Shown here: positions 42,274 through 60,145 of the stretch, one piece after another
Numbering within the stretch: the first letter of the stretch is position 1
How the letters are laid out: each line of letters begins with the position of its first letter
Assembly (NCBI GenBank): GCA_012517325.1
Contig: JAAYVF010000008.1
Coordinates: 62,001 to 126,000, forward strand
Length of the DNA stretch: 64,000 nt
Reading direction: 5' to 3'
DNA from: Myxococcales bacterium
Lineage (GTDB): Bacteria; Lernaellota; Lernaellaia; Lernaellales; Lernaellaceae
Program-made: the position numbers and the translations under genes
The notes under the pieces: generated by a model
What the model saw: only the letters and a program-made list of their open reading frames with translations
What the model was told of the DNA's origin: nothing
Databases searched by the model: none

Positions 42274-43704
42274 ATGGCGAGAATCGCTTTTTGCCAGGAA
42301 TTTCTTTATTCCTACATGAGTTTCACTGCTCTGTCGGCGGCTCTCAAACAGGCCGGGCATCAGGTTGAATTGTTTTGTTTTTCCGGTTTGTCCGATCGAC
42401 CGATTCTGGATGATTTGATCCGGTTTAAGCCGGATCTGGTCGGCTTTTCCGTACTTACTCCCAGTCGCGATTGGTCCTTGGCGACGGCAAAACGGATCAA
42501 GAGTCGGCTGGATACCCTCGTCATTTTCGGCAATCTTGAAGCAATTTTTCACCCGGAGGTGATTGAAAATTCCGCGGTGGACATCGTCTGCCGCTGGGAA
42601 GGCGAGGCGCCGCTGCTGGAATTGGCCCGGCGACTGGACCGGCGACTTTCGTATGACGATATTCCCGGATTGTGGGTTAAAACATCGGTCGGCATCGCAC
42701 GCAACGACCACCCCGGCATCCTGACGGACCTCGATGCCGCTCCGTTTCAAGACCTCGCCTTGTACGACAAATATTCCTATTTCCGCCACAGCCGGGTTCT
42801 GCCAATTCTCTGCGGTCGCGGTTGTCCGTTCAACTGCCGTTATTGTTTCAATCCTCTGTTGCGGGAATATTACGGCGGTCGCCGCTATTTGCGAAAACGC
42901 CGTGCGGAGCGGGTCATCGAGGAATTGCGGCGGCATGAGGCCGACCGTTTTTTCAAACACGTGTTGATCGTCGATGAAACGATGTGGAACGACAACGACT
43001 GGTTGCGCGAGTTTTTGCTTCTTTATCGTCGGTACGTTCACAAACCGATCATCGCCAACTATCGCTTCGGCGCCTTGCGGGACGAGGATTTTTTACTGAT
43101 GAAGCAAGCCGGCGTGGAAGCCTTGATTGTCGCGTCGGAAACCGGAGACGAGGAGCAGCGTCGGACGCTTTTAGGAAAAAACGTCGCCAACGAGGAAATC
43201 ATTCGTGTTTGCCGGCGACTGCGCGAAGTCGGCATCGCCGTCGGGTGCAGTGTTTTTTTCGGCTTACCGGGCGATAGGGTGAACGATCATCTGCGGCGGT
43301 TGGCCTTTTTCCGAAAGTTGAACCCGACCTATCTCTGGAGCACCTTTTTTCAACCCTATCCCGGTTTGGCCCTGACCGCGGACCCCGTCGTGCAGGCCGC
43401 CTTGCCGGCGAACGTGGAATTCCATCCGACCTATCACCACGACATCGTGCTGGACGTTCCGGAAAAAGAACGGCTGGCGCGGTTGAAAAAAATCTATTTT
43501 CTTTGCGTTAAATTCCCCCGCCTTTCGTCGTGGTTCATGCGGTTGACGAAATGGGATATCCCGTTGTTGTTCAGTGGTCTTTTCTTTCTTCATTTTGCCT
43601 ACTACGCCAAGGTTTTCGAACGTTTGTCCTTTCGCCAATACCTGGCTCACGTGCGCTTGCTGGCGCTCAAACCGCTCTGGAAATATATCCTTGCCAAAAA
43701 TTAA
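42274..43704 (+). CDS. B12-binding-domain radical SAM protein 1
   Basis: A 476-residue radical SAM enzyme. Residues 1-125 resemble a cobalamin-binding domain (SFTALSAALKQAGHQVELF; LVGFSVLTPS). The [4Fe-4S] cluster motif is CPFNCRYC (CxxxCxxC). The C-terminal 120 residues have hydrophobic segments (LLFSGLFFLHFAYYAKVF) that may associate with membrane. Relatives in this class methylate or rearrange lipids, hopanoids, sugars or antibiotics; the reaction here is unknown. A second member follows 265 bases downstream. Confidence 0.85.
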   Translation: MARIAFCQEFLYSYMSFTALSAALKQAGHQVELFCFSGLSDRPILDDLIRFKPDLVGFSVLTPSRDWSLATAKRIKSRLDTLVIFGNLEAIFHPEVIENSAVDIVCRWEGEAPLLELARRLDRRLSYDDIPGLWVKTSVGIARNDHPGILTDLDAAPFQDLALYDKYSYFRHSRVLPILCGRGCPFNCRYCFNPLLREYYGGRRYLRKRRAERVIEELRRHEADRFFKHVLIVDETMWNDNDWLREFLLLYRRYVHKPIIANYRFGALRDEDFLLMKQAGVEALIVASETGDEEQRRTLLGKNVANEEIIRVCRRLREVGIAVGCSVFFGLPGDRVNDHLRRLAFFRKLNPTYLWSTFFQPYPGLALTADPVVQAALPANVEFHPTYHHDIVLDVPEKERLARLKKIYFLCVKFPRLSSWFMRLTKWDIPLLFSGLFFLHFAYYAKVFERLSFRQYLAHVRLLALKPLWKYILAKN

Positions 43705-43969: not shown

Positions 43970-45481
43970 ATGAAGCAACGCGTTTGTTTCGTTAATGCTC
44001 CCTATGACGGACCGATTGCCGGCATTTGGAACGATGTTTTCCCTCCCCTGACCATTCTGTCCTTGGCCGCGTATGTCCGTCGCGAACGCCCCGCGATCGA
44101 TGTTTCGATTATCGACGGCCTGCGGATCGGACCGAGCAAAGCCATGGTCGAGGCGTTGGCCAGTCCCGCTCGGATTTTTGCGGTCACGTACGTGAGTTTC
44201 AATGCCAGCACGGCTTACCGCTTCATCAATTCGTTGAAAAAAGCGCGGCCCGAGGTGATTGTCATCGCCGGCGGAACCCACGTCACCAGCCTTGAAAACG
44301 ATGCGTTTGAAAAAAGCGCGGTCGATTGGGCGGCCCACGGCGAAGCCGAGGAAACCCTCGTTGAACTGCTGGACCTGTTGGACGGTGGCGGCGATCCAGC
44401 GAAAATTCTCGGGCTGCTGTACCGCGAGGACGGCCGGGTGGCGCGGACACCCAATCGCCCCTTGATGGAAGACATCAATACTCTTCCTTTCCCCGCGCGC
44501 GACATGGTCAACCTCCGCGACTATTCGGGGATCTACGTCGCCCACCACAAACACAACCAACACATCCTTTCGGGTAGAGGGTGCGTCAACAATTGCTGGT
44601 TTTGCGCGCGAACGGTGTGGAAACGGCAAAAGCCCTGGCAACGACTGCGACGTCCCGACAACATCGTCGCCGAATTGCGGGAAATGCGCGATCGCTACGG
44701 CGTGCGCGAGTATTTCGACATGGGCGACGAGTTCAACAGCTCCGAGAAGTGGGCCACCGAAACCGCCACCGCGATCGCCGACGCGAATTTGGGCTTGGAT
44801 TGGCAAACGTTTTCCCGCTCGACGCCGGTTACCGACGAAATGGCGGCCGCGATGAAGGCTTCCGGATGTTGGTTGGTTCACCTCGGCATCGAATCCGGCA
44901 ACCAGGCCACGCTCAACGGCATCGGAAAAAACATCACTCTGGAGCAGGCCCGGCAAGCCGCCGCCATCTACCAGCGTCACGGCATTAAGGTGGTTGGCTT
45001 GTTCATGTTGTTCAACGCTTGGGAACAGGATGGCCAATTCATGTACGAAGGCGTCAAGGAATCCGAGCAAACGCTCGCCTTTGCCCGTTCGATGCTTAAG
45101 GAAAAGCTGGTCGACTCGATCACCTGCTCGCCGGCCATGCCGTATCCCGGTGGATTGCTATTCGATGCCGCCATGCGCCACTCGATCATTCCGAAAGAAA
45201 AGTTCGACGATTGGGGCATCTGGGATCACGCCTGGAATTCAGTGATGACCCTTCCCGGCATTACCATGGCGGGAAAGTGGCGCGTGAAACTGAAAGGCAT
45301 CTGGATTCAATCGTGGTCGTTGATTTTTTCTCGACACCTGAATTTCTCGCATGCCATTTGGGGTCGCGGCTTGGGGATGTTCAAAATGGTATTCGGCTCG
45401 ATGGTGGATGGTTTTCTGAAAATCACCGGAAAAAAGCCGTCCCGACATTTCGGCCGCTATTTGGCCAGCTTCGAGGATTAA
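43970..45481 (+). CDS. B12-binding-domain radical SAM protein 2
   Basis: A 503-residue paralogous radical SAM protein. N-terminal cobalamin-binding-like domain (PPLTILSLAAYVRRERP; VIVIAGGTHVTSLE), then the cluster motif CVNNCWFC, and DMGDEFNSSEKWA and LGIESGNQATLNGIGK of the radical SAM barrel. The C-terminus again has a hydrophobic stretch (LIFSRHLNFSHAIWGRGLG). The start follows a GGAG site (CACGGAGACTAG). Tandem radical SAM/B12 genes often belong to a biosynthetic pathway for a lipid or natural product. Confidence 0.85.
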   Translation: MKQRVCFVNAPYDGPIAGIWNDVFPPLTILSLAAYVRRERPAIDVSIIDGLRIGPSKAMVEALASPARIFAVTYVSFNASTAYRFINSLKKARPEVIVIAGGTHVTSLENDAFEKSAVDWAAHGEAEETLVELLDLLDGGGDPAKILGLLYREDGRVARTPNRPLMEDINTLPFPARDMVNLRDYSGIYVAHHKHNQHILSGRGCVNNCWFCARTVWKRQKPWQRLRRPDNIVAELREMRDRYGVREYFDMGDEFNSSEKWATETATAIADANLGLDWQTFSRSTPVTDEMAAAMKASGCWLVHLGIESGNQATLNGIGKNITLEQARQAAAIYQRHGIKVVGLFMLFNAWEQDGQFMYEGVKESEQTLAFARSMLKEKLVDSITCSPAMPYPGGLLFDAAMRHSIIPKEKFDDWGIWDHAWNSVMTLPGITMAGKWRVKLKGIWIQSWSLIFSRHLNFSHAIWGRGLGMFKMVFGSMVDGFLKITGKKPSRHFGRYLASFED

Positions 45482-45681: not shown

Positions 45682-47106
45682 ATGTTCGCCATTCCTTCAT
45701 TTTTTTTCACCCTGGCTGTCCTCTTTTGGCGATCTCTTGCGCAAGGCGCGAGAAAAAAAAACAAACCGCGGATGGCCTTGTTTTTTCGCCGTCTCGCCGC
45801 CGTCAACCTGATCTTGTTGGTTTTTATTTGCGCCTATTGGGACCGACCGTTCTGGGTTGGTTTTCTTATCGATAATCCCTGGCTTTGGGCCGCTTCATTT
45901 ATTCCGGCGGGTTGCTGGGCCGCTGTCCGGCATCGTCGATCGCCGAATTGGCGAAAGACCCTACTGCACTTTTTTCTTGTCTACAATTTACTGCTACCGC
46001 TATTTCTTCAACTCTGGTTTGTACTGTTTTACACCGTCCGAGACGACGATTCATGGCGGGTCGAGGCTGATTCCCGGATCAAAGTCCTGTTTTCACAGAA
46101 GCGCGCCGAAGAATTGCGTCCGTGGATGAGCCCCAGCGACAAAAACCGGGATCCGCGACGTTCGGTCAGCGATCCGCGGATCTTTTTCCCCTCGGCGGAT
46201 CCCGAACTCATTTATTTGGGCAATGGACAGGAAGATCCGCCGACTTCGGTCCGGGGGCGACAAGCTTTACTATTGGTGGAACGGCGGACCGGCCGCCTGC
46301 GCCAGGCTCTTTTTGGCCAGACGATCATTCAAGGCACCTGCTTACCGAATAAAAAATGTTATCTGACTAGTTCCTCGAACAACACGTTTTTTGTTTGGGA
46401 CGAGACACGGCTCGCTTTCGAGCGGACGCTGAAGTTTCCCGCGCCCTATCGTCCGCGCTGGGTGTTTCCCGACGCGACCGGCGACACGCTTTACCTGGGA
46501 TTCGACGGCAAGCCCCGGATCGAACGATTGGATGCCGTCACCCTCAATGGCTTGACCGAAAGGACCATCGATCAAAGCCGAGCCGGTGGCTTGGCTTATC
46601 TTTTACGCGATCCAACCAGCGGTGAACTTTACGCGCTAACCGAGGAAGTGATTCTTAACGACCGTCCGATTACCCGCCTGACCGCCGATTTACAGGCCGT
46701 CGCCTCCTTTCGCCTGCCCTGGCTTCGGCTTTTGTGCGGACAGGGCTATTTGATCAGCATGGTCATCGACAACGACCGCAAGGAACTGTATGCCACCGCG
46801 ATTCTGGACGGCGCCGTCTACATTTTTGATTTGACCAGCGGCCGTTATGTTGGCCAGGTGCCGGTGGGCGTCGGCGTCCGCCAATTGGCCTACGATGCGG
46901 TCGGCCACCGCCTGTTCGCGTCGAATTACGTTGACGGCACCATTACCGTTCTGGATATGACGACTCGACAATCGACGGATCGCATTTTTATAGGAAAGCG
47001 CGCCCGCGAGATGTTCTACGACTCGACCAACGATCGCTTGTACGCCACCAGCGTCAATGGCTGGCTGGAAATCGATGTCTCGGCCGGTAAAAAACCGGGT
47101 GTTTGA
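45682..47106 (+). CDS. Membrane protein with beta-propeller-like domain
   Basis: A 474-residue protein. Residues 1-125 contain four helices; the remaining 350 residues form repeated strands such as GDTLYLGFDGKPRIERLDAVT, KELYATAILDGAVYIFDLTSGRYVG and HRLFASNYVDGTITVLDMTTRQ, typical of YncE/NHL-type beta-propellers. A periplasmic or surface propeller anchored by helices is inferred. The gene is AT-richer than most of the window. Function unknown. Confidence 0.7.
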   Translation: MFAIPSFFFTLAVLFWRSLAQGARKKNKPRMALFFRRLAAVNLILLVFICAYWDRPFWVGFLIDNPWLWAASFIPAGCWAAVRHRRSPNWRKTLLHFFLVYNLLLPLFLQLWFVLFYTVRDDDSWRVEADSRIKVLFSQKRAEELRPWMSPSDKNRDPRRSVSDPRIFFPSADPELIYLGNGQEDPPTSVRGRQALLLVERRTGRLRQALFGQTIIQGTCLPNKKCYLTSSSNNTFFVWDETRLAFERTLKFPAPYRPRWVFPDATGDTLYLGFDGKPRIERLDAVTLNGLTERTIDQSRAGGLAYLLRDPTSGELYALTEEVILNDRPITRLTADLQAVASFRLPWLRLLCGQGYLISMVIDNDRKELYATAILDGAVYIFDLTSGRYVGQVPVGVGVRQLAYDAVGHRLFASNYVDGTITVLDMTTRQSTDRIFIGKRAREMFYDSTNDRLYATSVNGWLEIDVSAGKKPGV

Positions 47107-56024: not shown

Positions 56025-58181
56025 GTGAAAAAAGGTTTTTTCCTGCTTCCCCTTTTGGGACTGGCGACCGGTTTGATTCTCAACGCCTTCGCCAAGGCGT
56101 TGGAATTCATGATGATCGCCAATTTCCTGCAGGTCCTGATCCTCAGCCTGGCGTTCTTTTTTCTCGCCCTGGGATTGCTGCGCGATGAAGCGAAACGGCG
56201 TCGCACGGCCGGCCTGATCGGCGTGGCGGCGGTCGCGGTCGCGGTCTTCGCGGCCAGCCAGTTCAACCGCGATTTCGCTACCATCGCCCTGGCCAGCGCG
56301 ATCTATTATCCCGTGCCGCTGCCGCGCTCGGGCTTCTTCAACCAGTTGTCGCTGGTCGTCTTTTTATTCGGCGTGCCTTGGCTGATGCGATCGGCGGGCC
56401 GGGCCTTCGCCGACCGGCTCGAACAAGCCGATCCGGCGCAGCCGCTGCACCTCGGTTTGTTCCTTGCCGGCTTCGCCGCCGGTTTCACCCTGGTGTACAC
56501 CGTCGGCTTCTTCGGCCCCTTCGGCTGGCTGTTGACCGGCCTGGCATTGCTGTTGTTGGTGGCCGTGCCCTGGCCGGTCGCCGTCGCCGCCCTCGCGGCG
56601 CTCGGCGCGGTGCTCGGCGCCTACCAACTTTATCCCCAGCACAGCTTTTTCGCCTTCGGCATCACCGAATACCGCTACCTCGGCAAGGATTTCGGCCGCG
56701 ACATCAAGCTGGACTTCATCGAATACGGCCAACCGCCCTGCCTGGGCGTGGTGATCGACAACGTCATGATGACCTGCGAATGCGTCGAGCCTTCGTGGAT
56801 CCCCAAGGAATGGGATTTCATCGTCCGGGCGATTCTCTACCCCGAGCGCTTCGTGCCGCAGCGCGATCCGCGCGATCCGCTGCCCGCGGTTCCCGACTGG
56901 TGGAAAGAGAATTTGCGCGTGCTTTCGCTGGGCCACAGCGGCACCGGCCCGACCAAATCGCTGGAAATCTACAGCGGGCCGAATCAAAACCGCGTGGTGC
57001 AATTCGACCCGGCCCTCGCGCGCGGCCTGTCGCAAACCTACCGCTCCTACACCGACCATTCGCAGTATTCGAAGGAATCGATCAACGAACTGGCGAGCGG
57101 CGATTTTCGTACCGAGCTGCGGCAGGCGGCGCTCGCCGGCGGCGGCTACGATTGGGTGTTTTACAGCGGCATCGGCACCAAGACCTACCAACTGCCGCGC
57201 AGCTATCTCTACACCGAACACTATCTGCTGACGAAGGAAGGCGCGGCGTTGCTCTTCGATCGGGTGCTGAAGCCGGACGGCGTCTTCTTCCTCGATTGGG
57301 GCTCCTCGGACACTCAGGAATCGCGGTATTTCGTCGCCTCCTTCCCGAAAACCGTGACGATCGCCGCGTTCTGGACGACGGAATCCGAATACCCGTTCTC
57401 CGGCAATCCGCTGCTGTATGTGGTGGCCTCGAAGGATGCCGCCAAGATCGCCGCCGTCAAAGAACGGATGAAACAGCTCAGCGGCATTTATGAGGTGGAT
57501 TTCAGCGAAAACCTGCCCTTCTATCGAACCACCGACAACCGGCCCTTCCTTCAGCCCGACCTGCACTGGGTGTTCACCCTGTGCCATCTTTTGCTGTTGC
57601 CGCTGGTCTATTTCTGCGTCCGGCTATTCCGGCGCCGGCTGGCGCTGACCGCGGGCCCCGCCGCCTGGAAAGCCGGGTGGTTATTCGTGCTGATCGGACT
57701 GGCTGCCGGCATGGGCGAGACAATCTTCGCCTCGTTCAATCCCTTCGTCCGCGGCCCGTTCGGCCTGACTTCGTGGTCGGTTCAACACCTGGCTTTTCTG
57801 CTGGCGACGGCGATCGGTTTTCTGGCCGTGGCGGCGATCCGCTCGCCGCGCCGCTTGCCGACGCGCCTCGCCCCCGTCTTGATCGTCGCCGCCCTGGCGT
57901 TGCTGTTTGTCCTGTCTGAACGGAATGCGGTTTTTCTGACCGCGCCGCTCGCCGGCCTCGGTTTCGGTTTCCTGCTGGCGGGTCAAATCCGGTCGTACCA
58001 GGGCGATGAGCTGATCTACGCCATCGCCTGCTATTGTCTCGGTCTGGCGCTGGCCCTGTGGTTTCTGGAAATCCCGTTCTACTTCGGCGGCTACCGGGTC
58101 GTCGCGGGGCTGACCGGCGCCCTGGCGCTGGCCGTGGGTTGGTGGGGGCGGCGGCTGAACACCTGGGTGAAACCGGCATGA
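56025..58181 (+). CDS. Membrane protein with spermidine-synthase-like domain
   Basis: A 718-residue protein from a GTG start. About five helices at the N-terminus (1-200), a soluble Rossmann-like domain (about 205-510) and six or more helices to the end. The middle domain resembles spermidine/spermine synthases: VLSLGHSGTG takes the place of the usual VLVIGGGDG SAM loop, VVQFDPALA fits the following acidic turn, and GGYDWVFYSG the strand after. The SAM loop is altered, so catalysis is unsure. The last base of the stop overlaps the next ATG; a membrane aminopropyl- or methyl-transfer, or a non-catalytic adaptor role, is inferred. Confidence 0.72.
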   Translation: MKKGFFLLPLLGLATGLILNAFAKALEFMMIANFLQVLILSLAFFFLALGLLRDEAKRRRTAGLIGVAAVAVAVFAASQFNRDFATIALASAIYYPVPLPRSGFFNQLSLVVFLFGVPWLMRSAGRAFADRLEQADPAQPLHLGLFLAGFAAGFTLVYTVGFFGPFGWLLTGLALLLLVAVPWPVAVAALAALGAVLGAYQLYPQHSFFAFGITEYRYLGKDFGRDIKLDFIEYGQPPCLGVVIDNVMMTCECVEPSWIPKEWDFIVRAILYPERFVPQRDPRDPLPAVPDWWKENLRVLSLGHSGTGPTKSLEIYSGPNQNRVVQFDPALARGLSQTYRSYTDHSQYSKESINELASGDFRTELRQAALAGGGYDWVFYSGIGTKTYQLPRSYLYTEHYLLTKEGAALLFDRVLKPDGVFFLDWGSSDTQESRYFVASFPKTVTIAAFWTTESEYPFSGNPLLYVVASKDAAKIAAVKERMKQLSGIYEVDFSENLPFYRTTDNRPFLQPDLHWVFTLCHLLLLPLVYFCVRLFRRRLALTAGPAAWKAGWLFVLIGLAAGMGETIFASFNPFVRGPFGLTSWSVQHLAFLLATAIGFLAVAAIRSPRRLPTRLAPVLIVAALALLFVLSERNAVFLTAPLAGLGFGFLLAGQIRSYQGDELIYAIACYCLGLALALWFLEIPFYFGGYRVVAGLTGALALAVGWWGRRLNTWVKPA

Positions 58182-60145
58182 AAAAGATCAACCTCTCGCT
58201 GACGCTGGCGATCCTTTCCGGGTACTGGGTGCTGGTCACCGAAACCTGGTCGCCGCTGTACCGGTGCAACCTCTTGTTTCACCCGCTGATCGGCGTCGCG
58301 GTGACCCTCTTCTTTTTCATCTTCCTGTGGCGCGATCGATCGCAGCAACCCGACGAACATCCCTGGCTGGGCACCGTGCTGCCCGCCGTCGTTTTGTCGG
58401 CGGTGCTGGGCGCGTTGCGCACGGCCTATCCGAACCACCTCGCCGACCTGCTGCTGCTTCTCCTCTATCCCCTGTGGGCGATCCGCGATCTTCGTTCCCG
58501 GCCGGAACGGTTCGTCCGCCGCTGCGCCCTCTTCTTCTTCGTCGCGGTCGCGGTCACCGGCCTGATTTTCGGCGGCGCCCTCGGCGGCCGGGCGGTGAAA
58601 AATTACCTGTTGCTGCACCGCGTCGCCGCCGATGCCTTCGTCGTTTTCGCCTTGCTGGCCGTCGCTTTTTCCTGGCGGCGGCAGTGGCGCGCGGGCGCGA
58701 AATTCCGGGAACTGGCCGGCGCCGTTTTCGGGCCGCGGCGGTGGGTGCCCGTGCTGCTCGCGGCGGCCGTGATCGCCGTGACGATTTACGAGGCCGCGCA
58801 AGGCCGCGCCGACCCGACCTATCGCTTTCACCTGTCGACCTTCACCGTCGAGCGCCGCGGGCCGCACGAACAGGACGTGCTGCCGGCCGGTTTCAACGAG
58901 CCGCGCCTGGCCAGCAAAACGCAAAGCTGCGGCGGCACGCCGGGCTGCCACGATTCGCTGATCGAGGACATGAAAATCTCGACGCACGGGCGCTCGATGC
59001 TCACCCCCTACATGCAGAAAAACATGGAGCTGCTGGCGGACGAGATCGGCGAGCAGAACATGATCACCTGCGGCGGCTGCCATTACCCGCGGATGATGTT
59101 CGAGCGCGACGTGTCGCTGCGGCAGTCCTACACCGAACAGAACTACTCGTGCACTTTCTGTCACCAGATCTCCGGGGCGCATCTGCTGCCGGACCGCCGC
59201 AAGTCGGAAATCTCGGTGCGCCTGCGGCTCAATCACCTGCGGATGTTCGATCACGGCGGGCGGGACGCGATCACCCCCTTCGACCGGCTGCTGGTCAACC
59301 TCAATCCCTTCGGGCACCGCCGGGTCTTCACCCGCGACCTGTACTTCACCAACGAATATTGCCAGGCCTGCCACCGGCTGCAGATCCGCGAGACGGTCGC
59401 CACGCCGCTCACCGCGCCGCTGTGCATCGACTGCCACATGCAGCCGCGCGAACTGCTCGGGTTGCCGGGCAAGGAACGCAACCACGTTTTCCCCGGCACC
59501 AACACCGCCAACCCGCATGCGTTAGGCGATCAGGCGACGGTTGAAATGATCCAAAAGTACAGCCTCGGCGACCTGCCGCTGCCGATCAAAGGCTGGGGCA
59601 GCTTCTGGGAGCCGCGCAACGCCAAGGGCAAACGGCAGATCTGGGTCCACCAGAAATTCCTGCCGCTGACCGAACCGACGCCGGGCGGCGACTTCACCTT
59701 GCGGGTCATCACGATTAACGCCAGCATCGACCACGTTTTTCCGGGCGGGCCGCTCGACCTCATCGACTGCTGGCAGCGCGTCGTCGTGAAAGATCAGGAC
59801 GGCCGGGAAATCTTCCGGGTCGGCGATCTGGCCGCGGACAACCAGCTCGATCCGGCCGCGCACAAGCTCGGCGGTTACATGATGGGCGAGGACGGGCGGT
59901 TGGTCGAACGCAACCGCGTCTGGCAGATCAAGGAAAAGGTCGTGACGCGCGGCCTGCCCTTCCGCGTCAGCACCAACGACGACTACACCTTCCGGCTTCC
60001 CGAAAACACGCGGGCGATCCAGGTCGAATCGCAATGGCTTTTCCGCAAACTGAACCAGGATTTCGTCGACTGGGCCTACGACCGCTCCGGCTTCACCACG
60101 CCGGTGGTCGTTATGGCCGAGACCGCCGCGACCATCCCCTTCTAG
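58178..60145 (+). CDS. Membrane-anchored multihaem cytochrome c
   Basis: A 655-residue protein. Residues 1-205 contain six helices, with His147 as a possible b-haem or quinone ligand. The periplasmic part has haem motifs CGGTPGCH (CX5CH, 251-258), CGGCH (298-302), CTFCH (325-329), CQACH (395-399) and CIDCH (416-420). The last 230 residues form a beta-rich domain without motifs. The protein probably passes electrons from the membrane quinone pool to the periplasm. It overlaps the spermidine-synthase-like gene by 4 bases (ATGA), so the two work together. Confidence 0.85.
   Translation: MKKINLSLTLAILSGYWVLVTETWSPLYRCNLLFHPLIGVAVTLFFFIFLWRDRSQQPDEHPWLGTVLPAVVLSAVLGALRTAYPNHLADLLLLLLYPLWAIRDLRSRPERFVRRCALFFFVAVAVTGLIFGGALGGRAVKNYLLLHRVAADAFVVFALLAVAFSWRRQWRAGAKFRELAGAVFGPRRWVPVLLAAAVIAVTIYEAAQGRADPTYRFHLSTFTVERRGPHEQDVLPAGFNEPRLASKTQSCGGTPGCHDSLIEDMKISTHGRSMLTPYMQKNMELLADEIGEQNMITCGGCHYPRMMFERDVSLRQSYTEQNYSCTFCHQISGAHLLPDRRKSEISVRLRLNHLRMFDHGGRDAITPFDRLLVNLNPFGHRRVFTRDLYFTNEYCQACHRLQIRETVATPLTAPLCIDCHMQPRELLGLPGKERNHVFPGTNTANPHALGDQATVEMIQKYSLGDLPLPIKGWGSFWEPRNAKGKRQIWVHQKFLPLTEPTPGGDFTLRVITINASIDHVFPGGPLDLIDCWQRVVVKDQDGREIFRVGDLAADNQLDPAAHKLGGYMMGEDGRLVERNRVWQIKEKVVTRGLPFRVSTNDDYTFRLPENTRAIQVESQWLFRKLNQDFVDWAYDRSGFTTPVVVMAETAATIPF

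Follow-up and report, generated by a model that had tools for sequence, protein, structure and literature searches.

A spermidine-synthase-like membrane protein and a pentahaem cytochrome encoded as a conserved gene pair: a candidate membrane redox complex

In a 64,000-nucleotide stretch of DNA from a Myxococcales bacterium (GenBank assembly GCA_012517325.1, contig JAAYVF010000008.1, positions 62,001 to 126,000; hereafter the window), an open reading frame (ORF) for a spermidine-synthase-like membrane protein, ORF1, runs directly into one for a multihaem cytochrome, ORF2. The locus raises the question whether the two proteins are partners and, if so, whether aminopropyl chemistry is linked to electron transfer. 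An earlier note, made from the sequence alone, had raised that link and suggested an undescribed membrane redox complex. The genes form a conserved unit, and the latter is a fair reading. We give an even chance to an inner-membrane, periplasm-facing electron-transfer complex of ORF1 and ORF2, probably quinol-linked, in which ORF1 is non-catalytic.

Conservation and co-divergence of the gene pair

The reading frames and the ATGA stop/start overlap confirmed both genes at the positions given in the earlier note (Table 1). ORF1 starts with a GTG at 56025 and stops at 58181. For ORF2, the ORF listing gives a longer frame beginning at TTG 58034; the ATG at 58178 is backed by homologues. By tblastn and profile searches, paralogues and orthologues of both genes were recovered over most of their length, and this conservation rules out chance reading frames. 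A plasmid search gave no match.

The genomes carrying the pair are referred to as G000 (the window genome, 96.75% complete), G005 (another genus of the same family), G007 (a second phylum) and G199. The genomes searched numbered 291, with 7 from the phylum of the window and 284 from that of G007. Both genes had full-length relatives in the four named above, and no genome had such a relative of just one gene; more distant relatives of ORF1 and of ORF2 are present in further genomes. A scan of a wider collection confirmed two relatives only, and other phyla may therefore hold more. All seven full-length ORF1 relatives adjoin an ORF2 relative, across four genomes, two phyla and three gene arrangements. 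ORF1 precedes ORF2 on one strand in the window (C8), G007:C34 and G199:C69; the genes converge at C113 and C18, both in G000, and at G005:C238; and ORF2 precedes ORF1 at G007:C216. Thus, G000 has three ORF1-like genes with an ORF2-like gene beside each, G007 has two pairs, and G199 has one. The G005 pair is found in public record PMZC01000061 (L038) and the G007:C34 pair, which shares the 4-base overlap of the window, in CAINDP010000034 (L037). The identity matrices of the partners correlated strongly (r=0.97), a value equalled by 2 of 5040 permutations of the seven pairs. With the four genomes divided between two lineages, the best reading of this co-divergence is that paired paralogues were inherited together, rather than that they coevolved independently. 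The co-occurrence search suggested in the earlier note thus found the pair conserved, and its proposal of a two-gene unit holds.

Chance neighbours were rejected on the adjacency of all seven pairs in three arrangements. We also consider it very unlikely that the genes are adjacent without joint function, through an inherited neighbourhood or shared regulation only. Such an explanation would be in line with the small number of lineages and with the ATGA overlap, which is a common arrangement, but adjacency persists through three arrangements, of which the convergent ones cannot share a transcript, and no multihaem ORF was seen within about 8 kb of seven other membrane spermidine-synthase-like genes, five of them in G000 and two in G005. 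The latter count (0/7) also gives no support to a general coupling of membrane spermidine-synthase-like genes to cytochromes. In the wider family, a multihaem ORF lay within about 8 kb at 2 of 18 loci (L095 and L101), a rough count since the ORF1-like gene was not re-scored by our own scan at 8 of the 18. At L101:8033-12694, a wider-family gene with an intact GxGGG loop immediately precedes the gene for an ORF2-related, lipoprotein-like cytochrome with five haems.

The spermidine-synthase-like domain of ORF1

Against Pfam and NCBIfam, ORF1 gave no match above cut-off, including PF01564 (Spermine_synth), and reached PRK04457 at E=0.1 only. A profile of five ORF1 relatives matched solved structures of S-adenosylmethionine (SAM)-dependent methyltransferases (E 0.0037) and spermidine synthase 1uir/3anx (E 0.33). 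The top Foldseek match of the ORF1 model, which is of low confidence (predicted local distance difference test score, pLDDT, 43), was human spermine synthase 3c6k (E 0.011). The deepest ORF1 relative, G007:C216, matches the ORF1 profile at E 1e-73 and passes PF01564 (34.9 against a cut-off of 22.9 bits). The spermidine-synthase-like fold proposed in the earlier note is therefore weak when sought directly in ORF1, and draws its support from the profile, from Foldseek and, more firmly, from G007:C216. A Pfam Flavi_NS4A match on one ORF1 relative was set aside as a false match arising from membrane helices.

The residues expected of a synthase have largely been replaced. The DxxD aspartates are lost in six of the seven relatives (SGIG in ORF1) and kept only in G007:C216, as FLDGLD. 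The GxGxG loop is altered to G-x-S in all seven, in agreement with the altered SAM loop described in the earlier note; no full-length relative has it intact. With a deepest relative that scores above the Spermine_synth cut-off and has both aspartates, ORF1 resembles a degenerate offshoot of this superfamily. Other positions are strongly retained: the remodelled loop FYxGIG in 6/7 (F/Y varies in one), and C239, C253, D328 and D424 in all seven. An aspartate follows strand 2 in every relative. Cys239 and Cys253 may form a disulfide or ligand pair.

Seven helices precede the domain in both the model and our own dynamic-programming predictor, and seven follow it in the window protein. The predictor placed the domain outside in all seven relatives and in three of three members of the wider family. 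Lysine plus arginine counts were 15–22 inside and 7–9 outside, a consistency check rather than an independent test because the loop assignments were set beforehand. The domain thus probably faces the periplasm; should this prediction be right, the site is out of reach of cytoplasmic SAM. Homology of the ORF1 and ORF2 membrane domains was not supported (profile comparison probability 6%).

These features bear on the link between aminopropyl chemistry and electron transfer. That ORF1 is a genuine aminopropyltransferase with such a role is extremely improbable: the fold-level resemblance and, in G007:C216, the PF01564 match and the two retained aspartates speak in favour, but in ORF1 itself the aspartates and GxGxG are gone, and the predicted place of the domain is the periplasm, in which SAM is unexpected. 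Moreover, no S-adenosylmethionine decarboxylase (PF02675) was matched in G000 or G005, an unrecognised type being possible, compared to matches in 8 of 14 control genomes. Where the decarboxylase is present, in G007 and G199, each genome carries a separate full-score Spermine_synth gene. On the lost catalytic residues, the predicted location and the undetected decarboxylase, we rejected an active aminopropyltransferase, and the proposed link is not supported.

Haem sites and membrane domain of ORF2

ORF2 passes the Cytochrome_C7 family PF14522 (27.0 against a cut-off of 24.8 bits), which identifies its haem domain as a cytochrome c7 relative. The match to Ni_hydr_CYTB (PF01292, prokaryotic cytochrome b561) stayed below cut-off (15.8 against 30.1 bits, E 0.013). 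The five haem motifs recognised in the earlier note, four CXXCH and one CX5CH, are well supported, as all 15 haem-site residues, cysteines and proximal histidines alike, are kept in 20/20 homologues. Distal histidines 270, 380, 436 and 519 also occur in all 20, and H353 in 12. A pair of membrane histidines able to hold a b haem is present (H147 in 20/20, H35 in 19/20). From this pattern, we predict for ORF2 a single b haem, located on the side of the periplasm, and five c haems, of which at least four could take a histidine as their second ligand. Seven N-terminal helices are likelier than the six of the earlier note according to a low-confidence model, and our own predictor returned 5–7.

Across 20 relatives, the first haem site widens stepwise from CX2CH to CX4CH and then to CX5CH and CX6CH. 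This suggests that the CX5CH-type site is a noncanonical c-haem attachment motif derived from a normal one. A literature search on CX5CH gave no match.

Table 1. Positions of the ORF1/ORF2 features and of neighbouring genes in the window
Feature	Position	Strand	Support or remark
ORF1, spermidine-synthase-like membrane protein, 718 aa, predicted 7 transmembrane (TM) helices - soluble domain - 7 TM	56025..58181	+	Reading frame, model, 7 full-length relatives
ORF1 N-terminal seven predicted TM helices, residues 5-199	56037..56621	+	YYPxPxP loop, residues 94-100, in 6/7 relatives
ORF1 soluble spermidine-synthase-like alpha/beta domain, residues 200-514, predicted periplasmic	56622..57566	+	
ORF1 Cys239...Cys253	56739..56783	+	Only cysteines invariant in 7/7 relatives
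ORF1 altered SAM loop GHSGTG, residues 303-308	56931..56948	+	G-x-S in all seven relatives; true synthases GxG(D/E)G
ORF1 YDWVFYSGIGTK, in place of DxxD catalytic loop, aspartates lost	57147..57182	+	Aspartates kept in G007:C216 (FLDGLD)
ORF1 C-terminal seven predicted TM helices, residues 515-708, positively charged cytoplasmic loops	57567..58148	+	
ATGA stop/start overlap of ORF1 and ORF2, 4 bases	58178..58181	+	Same overlap in G007:C34 pair
ORF2, membrane-anchored pentahaem cytochrome, 655 aa	58178..60145	+	Reading frame, PF14522 match
ORF2 N-terminal membrane domain, about seven TM helices	58193..58798	+	
ORF2 His35, periplasmic end of TM2, predicted b-haem ligand	58280..58282	+	19/20 (gap in one)
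ORF2 His147, periplasmic end of TM6, predicted b-haem ligand	58616..58618	+	20/20
Haem site 1, CX5CH (CGGTPGCH), noncanonical	58928..58951	+	Motif, conservation
Haem site 2, CXXCH (CGGCH)	59069..59083	+	Motif, conservation
Haem site 3, CXXCH (CTFCH)	59150..59164	+	Motif, conservation
Haem site 4, CXXCH (CQACH)	59360..59374	+	Motif, conservation
Haem site 5, CXXCH (CIDCH)	59423..59437	+	Motif, conservation
ORF2 C-terminal beta-rich domain, residues 490-655	59645..60142	+	Also in soluble relatives of the cytochrome
B12-binding radical SAM protein	42274..43704	+	Recurring neighbour; loosely linked in window
Second B12-binding radical SAM protein	43970..45481	+	Loosely linked in window
Membrane beta-propeller protein	45682..47106	+	Relatives recur close to pair elsewhere; loosely linked in window, about 9 kb away

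The proposed complex, its rivals and related systems

The electron-transfer complex builds on what was observed: the pairing, the co-divergence, the conserved haem sites and histidines, and the loss of the catalytic aspartates. In such a complex, ORF2 would be the redox subunit, its predicted b haem at the periplasmic side of the membrane domain linking the quinone pool to the five periplasmic c haems. ORF1 would be a dedicated 14-helix partner, bound to ORF2, whose periplasmic spermidine-synthase-like domain has lost aminopropyltransferase catalysis and may now offer the cytochrome a scaffold or a module for ligand binding.

Several points weigh against this interpretation. The four genomes represent about two lineages only, and quinone binding and oxidation by ORF2 is a step that we infer. 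The topology depends on helix parity from our own predictor, which placed a seventh helix inside the domain in some ORF1 relatives and put the haem domain on the wrong side in one of three cytochromes. Single-chain models were poor (pLDDT 43 for ORF1 and 46 for ORF2), as the alignments were only 3–4 sequences deep, and no complex structure was obtained. Remnants of the nucleotide pocket are kept, namely an acidic pair after strand 2 in most relatives and GD before the loop in 6/7, so that ORF1 may bind a ligand and hence retain some catalysis. Finally, the close ORF2 relatives C79, G005:C148 and G007:C34b have a membrane tetrahaem cytochrome as partner in place of ORF1, and the genes of these pairs, too, overlap by 4 bases (L008:4508-8049, L037:2289-5890, L022:1507-5015). 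ORF2-type cytochromes have two kinds of partner, and ORF1 is therefore not required by the whole family.

The retained pocket residues bear on the main rival, in which ORF1 is an extracytoplasmic enzyme. A precedent comes from the fungal seven-transmembrane methyltransferase NHMT (AN4663): secreted lytic polysaccharide monooxygenases are methylated on their N-terminal histidine by its spermidine-synthase-like domain, and the seven-transmembrane domain of NHMT has been reported only in fungi (PMC10349129). NHMT carries seven helices ahead of the spermidine-synthase-like domain, the order predicted for ORF1, and the GxG(D/E)G motif is altered in both proteins, in NHMT by replacement of the acidic residue (PMC10349129). 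Seven helices with the domain on the non-cytoplasmic side, as in NHMT, are predicted for all seven ORF1 relatives by low-confidence models and our own predictor. By analogy, ORF1 might modify or assemble ORF2, a role with which the acidic pair, the GD and the co-divergence of the partners would agree; NHMT itself acts on secreted proteins. We nevertheless consider this unlikely. Bacteria are not known to have a periplasmic supply of SAM. In addition, the GxG loop of ORF1 is more eroded than that of NHMT, and close ORF2 relatives in the same genomes that lack an ORF1 neighbour retain all haem sites. NHMT is a SAM methyltransferase that ends after its soluble domain, whereas ORF1 continues with seven further helices.

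Alternatively, ORF1 could act, as an active enzyme or as a ligand-binding subunit, on some substrate of the periplasm or membrane that is not SAM, and ORF2 would carry the electrons; the pair would then be an oxidoreductase with a repurposed Rossmann-like domain. The strongly kept FYxGIG loop and the four invariant residues C239, C253, D328 and D424 would fit such a function, and nearby B12-radical-SAM genes might hint at an unusual lipid or metabolite pathway. However, neither a substrate nor a catalytic signature is known, and radical SAM genes are abundant in these genomes and absent from the vicinity of the C18 locus. We regard this possibility, too, as improbable.

Compared with known proteins, both partners of the proposed complex combine familiar and unusual features. 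Membrane spermidine-synthase-like proteins of the PF01564 superfamily are common in these genomes and usually named as enzymes. Three that we examined share the layout of ORF1, with seven helices, the domain, and six or seven further helices. Unlike them, ORF1 falls below the family cut-off, lacks GxGxG and the aspartates, and has an invariant cysteine pair, and each of its full-length relatives has an ORF2-type cytochrome as partner. ORF1 thus provides evidence that one branch lost its chemistry and was joined to an electron carrier, and the role of the wider family becomes open to testing.

NapC/NrfH and CbcL are inner-membrane quinol-cytochrome proteins with a membrane anchor and a periplasmic multihaem domain, and CbcL has a b-haem membrane domain fused to c haems. 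ORF2 resembles these proteins in its anchor and multihaem domain, and CbcL in the predicted b/c fusion. It differs in that the membrane domain comes first, in having probably one b haem, and in its C-terminal beta domain. With the cytochrome c7/c554 family (PF14522, PF13435) ORF2 shares the haem-domain motifs, and soluble relatives share its C-terminal domain; the membrane domain and the widened CX5CH first site are additions. ORF2 thus adds a family of membrane cytochromes in which a predicted b haem is combined with five c haems, one of them at a noncanonical CX5CH site.

Adjacency of an annotated spermidine synthase and cytochromes has been seen before. In Geobacter sulfurreducens, GSU2502 is annotated as spermidine synthase; its locus number places it beside omcT and omcS, and it is down-regulated with them in a regulator mutant (PMC10599522). 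The likeness to ORF1, an annotated spermidine synthase beside multihaem cytochromes, is one of annotation and locus number only, and OmcS is an extracellular nanowire cytochrome, unlike the membrane-bound ORF2. A literature search linking the two families yielded nothing beyond this Geobacter table and no paper discussing the neighbourhood.

Genes for membrane beta-propeller proteins and B12-binding radical SAM proteins recur near the pairs. In the window, they lie 9–14 kb upstream of ORF1 with unrelated genes in between. Members of the propeller family were found near pairs in the window and at L007, L038, L074, L075 and L008, and at L038 the propeller frame and the beginning of the cytochrome gene have 4 bases in common. 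Strong propeller profile matches outside the query alignment mostly lay no more than about 13 kb from a pair or a related cytochrome, a figure obtained without a null comparison for genes first picked as neighbours. The enrichment of B12-radical-SAM genes is suggestive only, because G000, G005, G007 and G199 have 33–73 B12-binding domain matches per genome; many of these seem to belong to radical SAM proteins, and they often occur in clusters. Tentatively, and with rather low confidence, we propose a new class of redox complex in which a decayed extracytoplasmic spermidine-synthase domain would be the obligate partner of a quinol cytochrome with one b and five c haems, in one system with the propeller and B12-radical-SAM enzymes. 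The pair suggests where electron-transfer complexes may be sought in poorly studied bacterial lineages. Two further loci, L009:12943-15399 and L008:9006-10385, encode predicted secreted proteins with long aspartate-rich low-complexity stretches.

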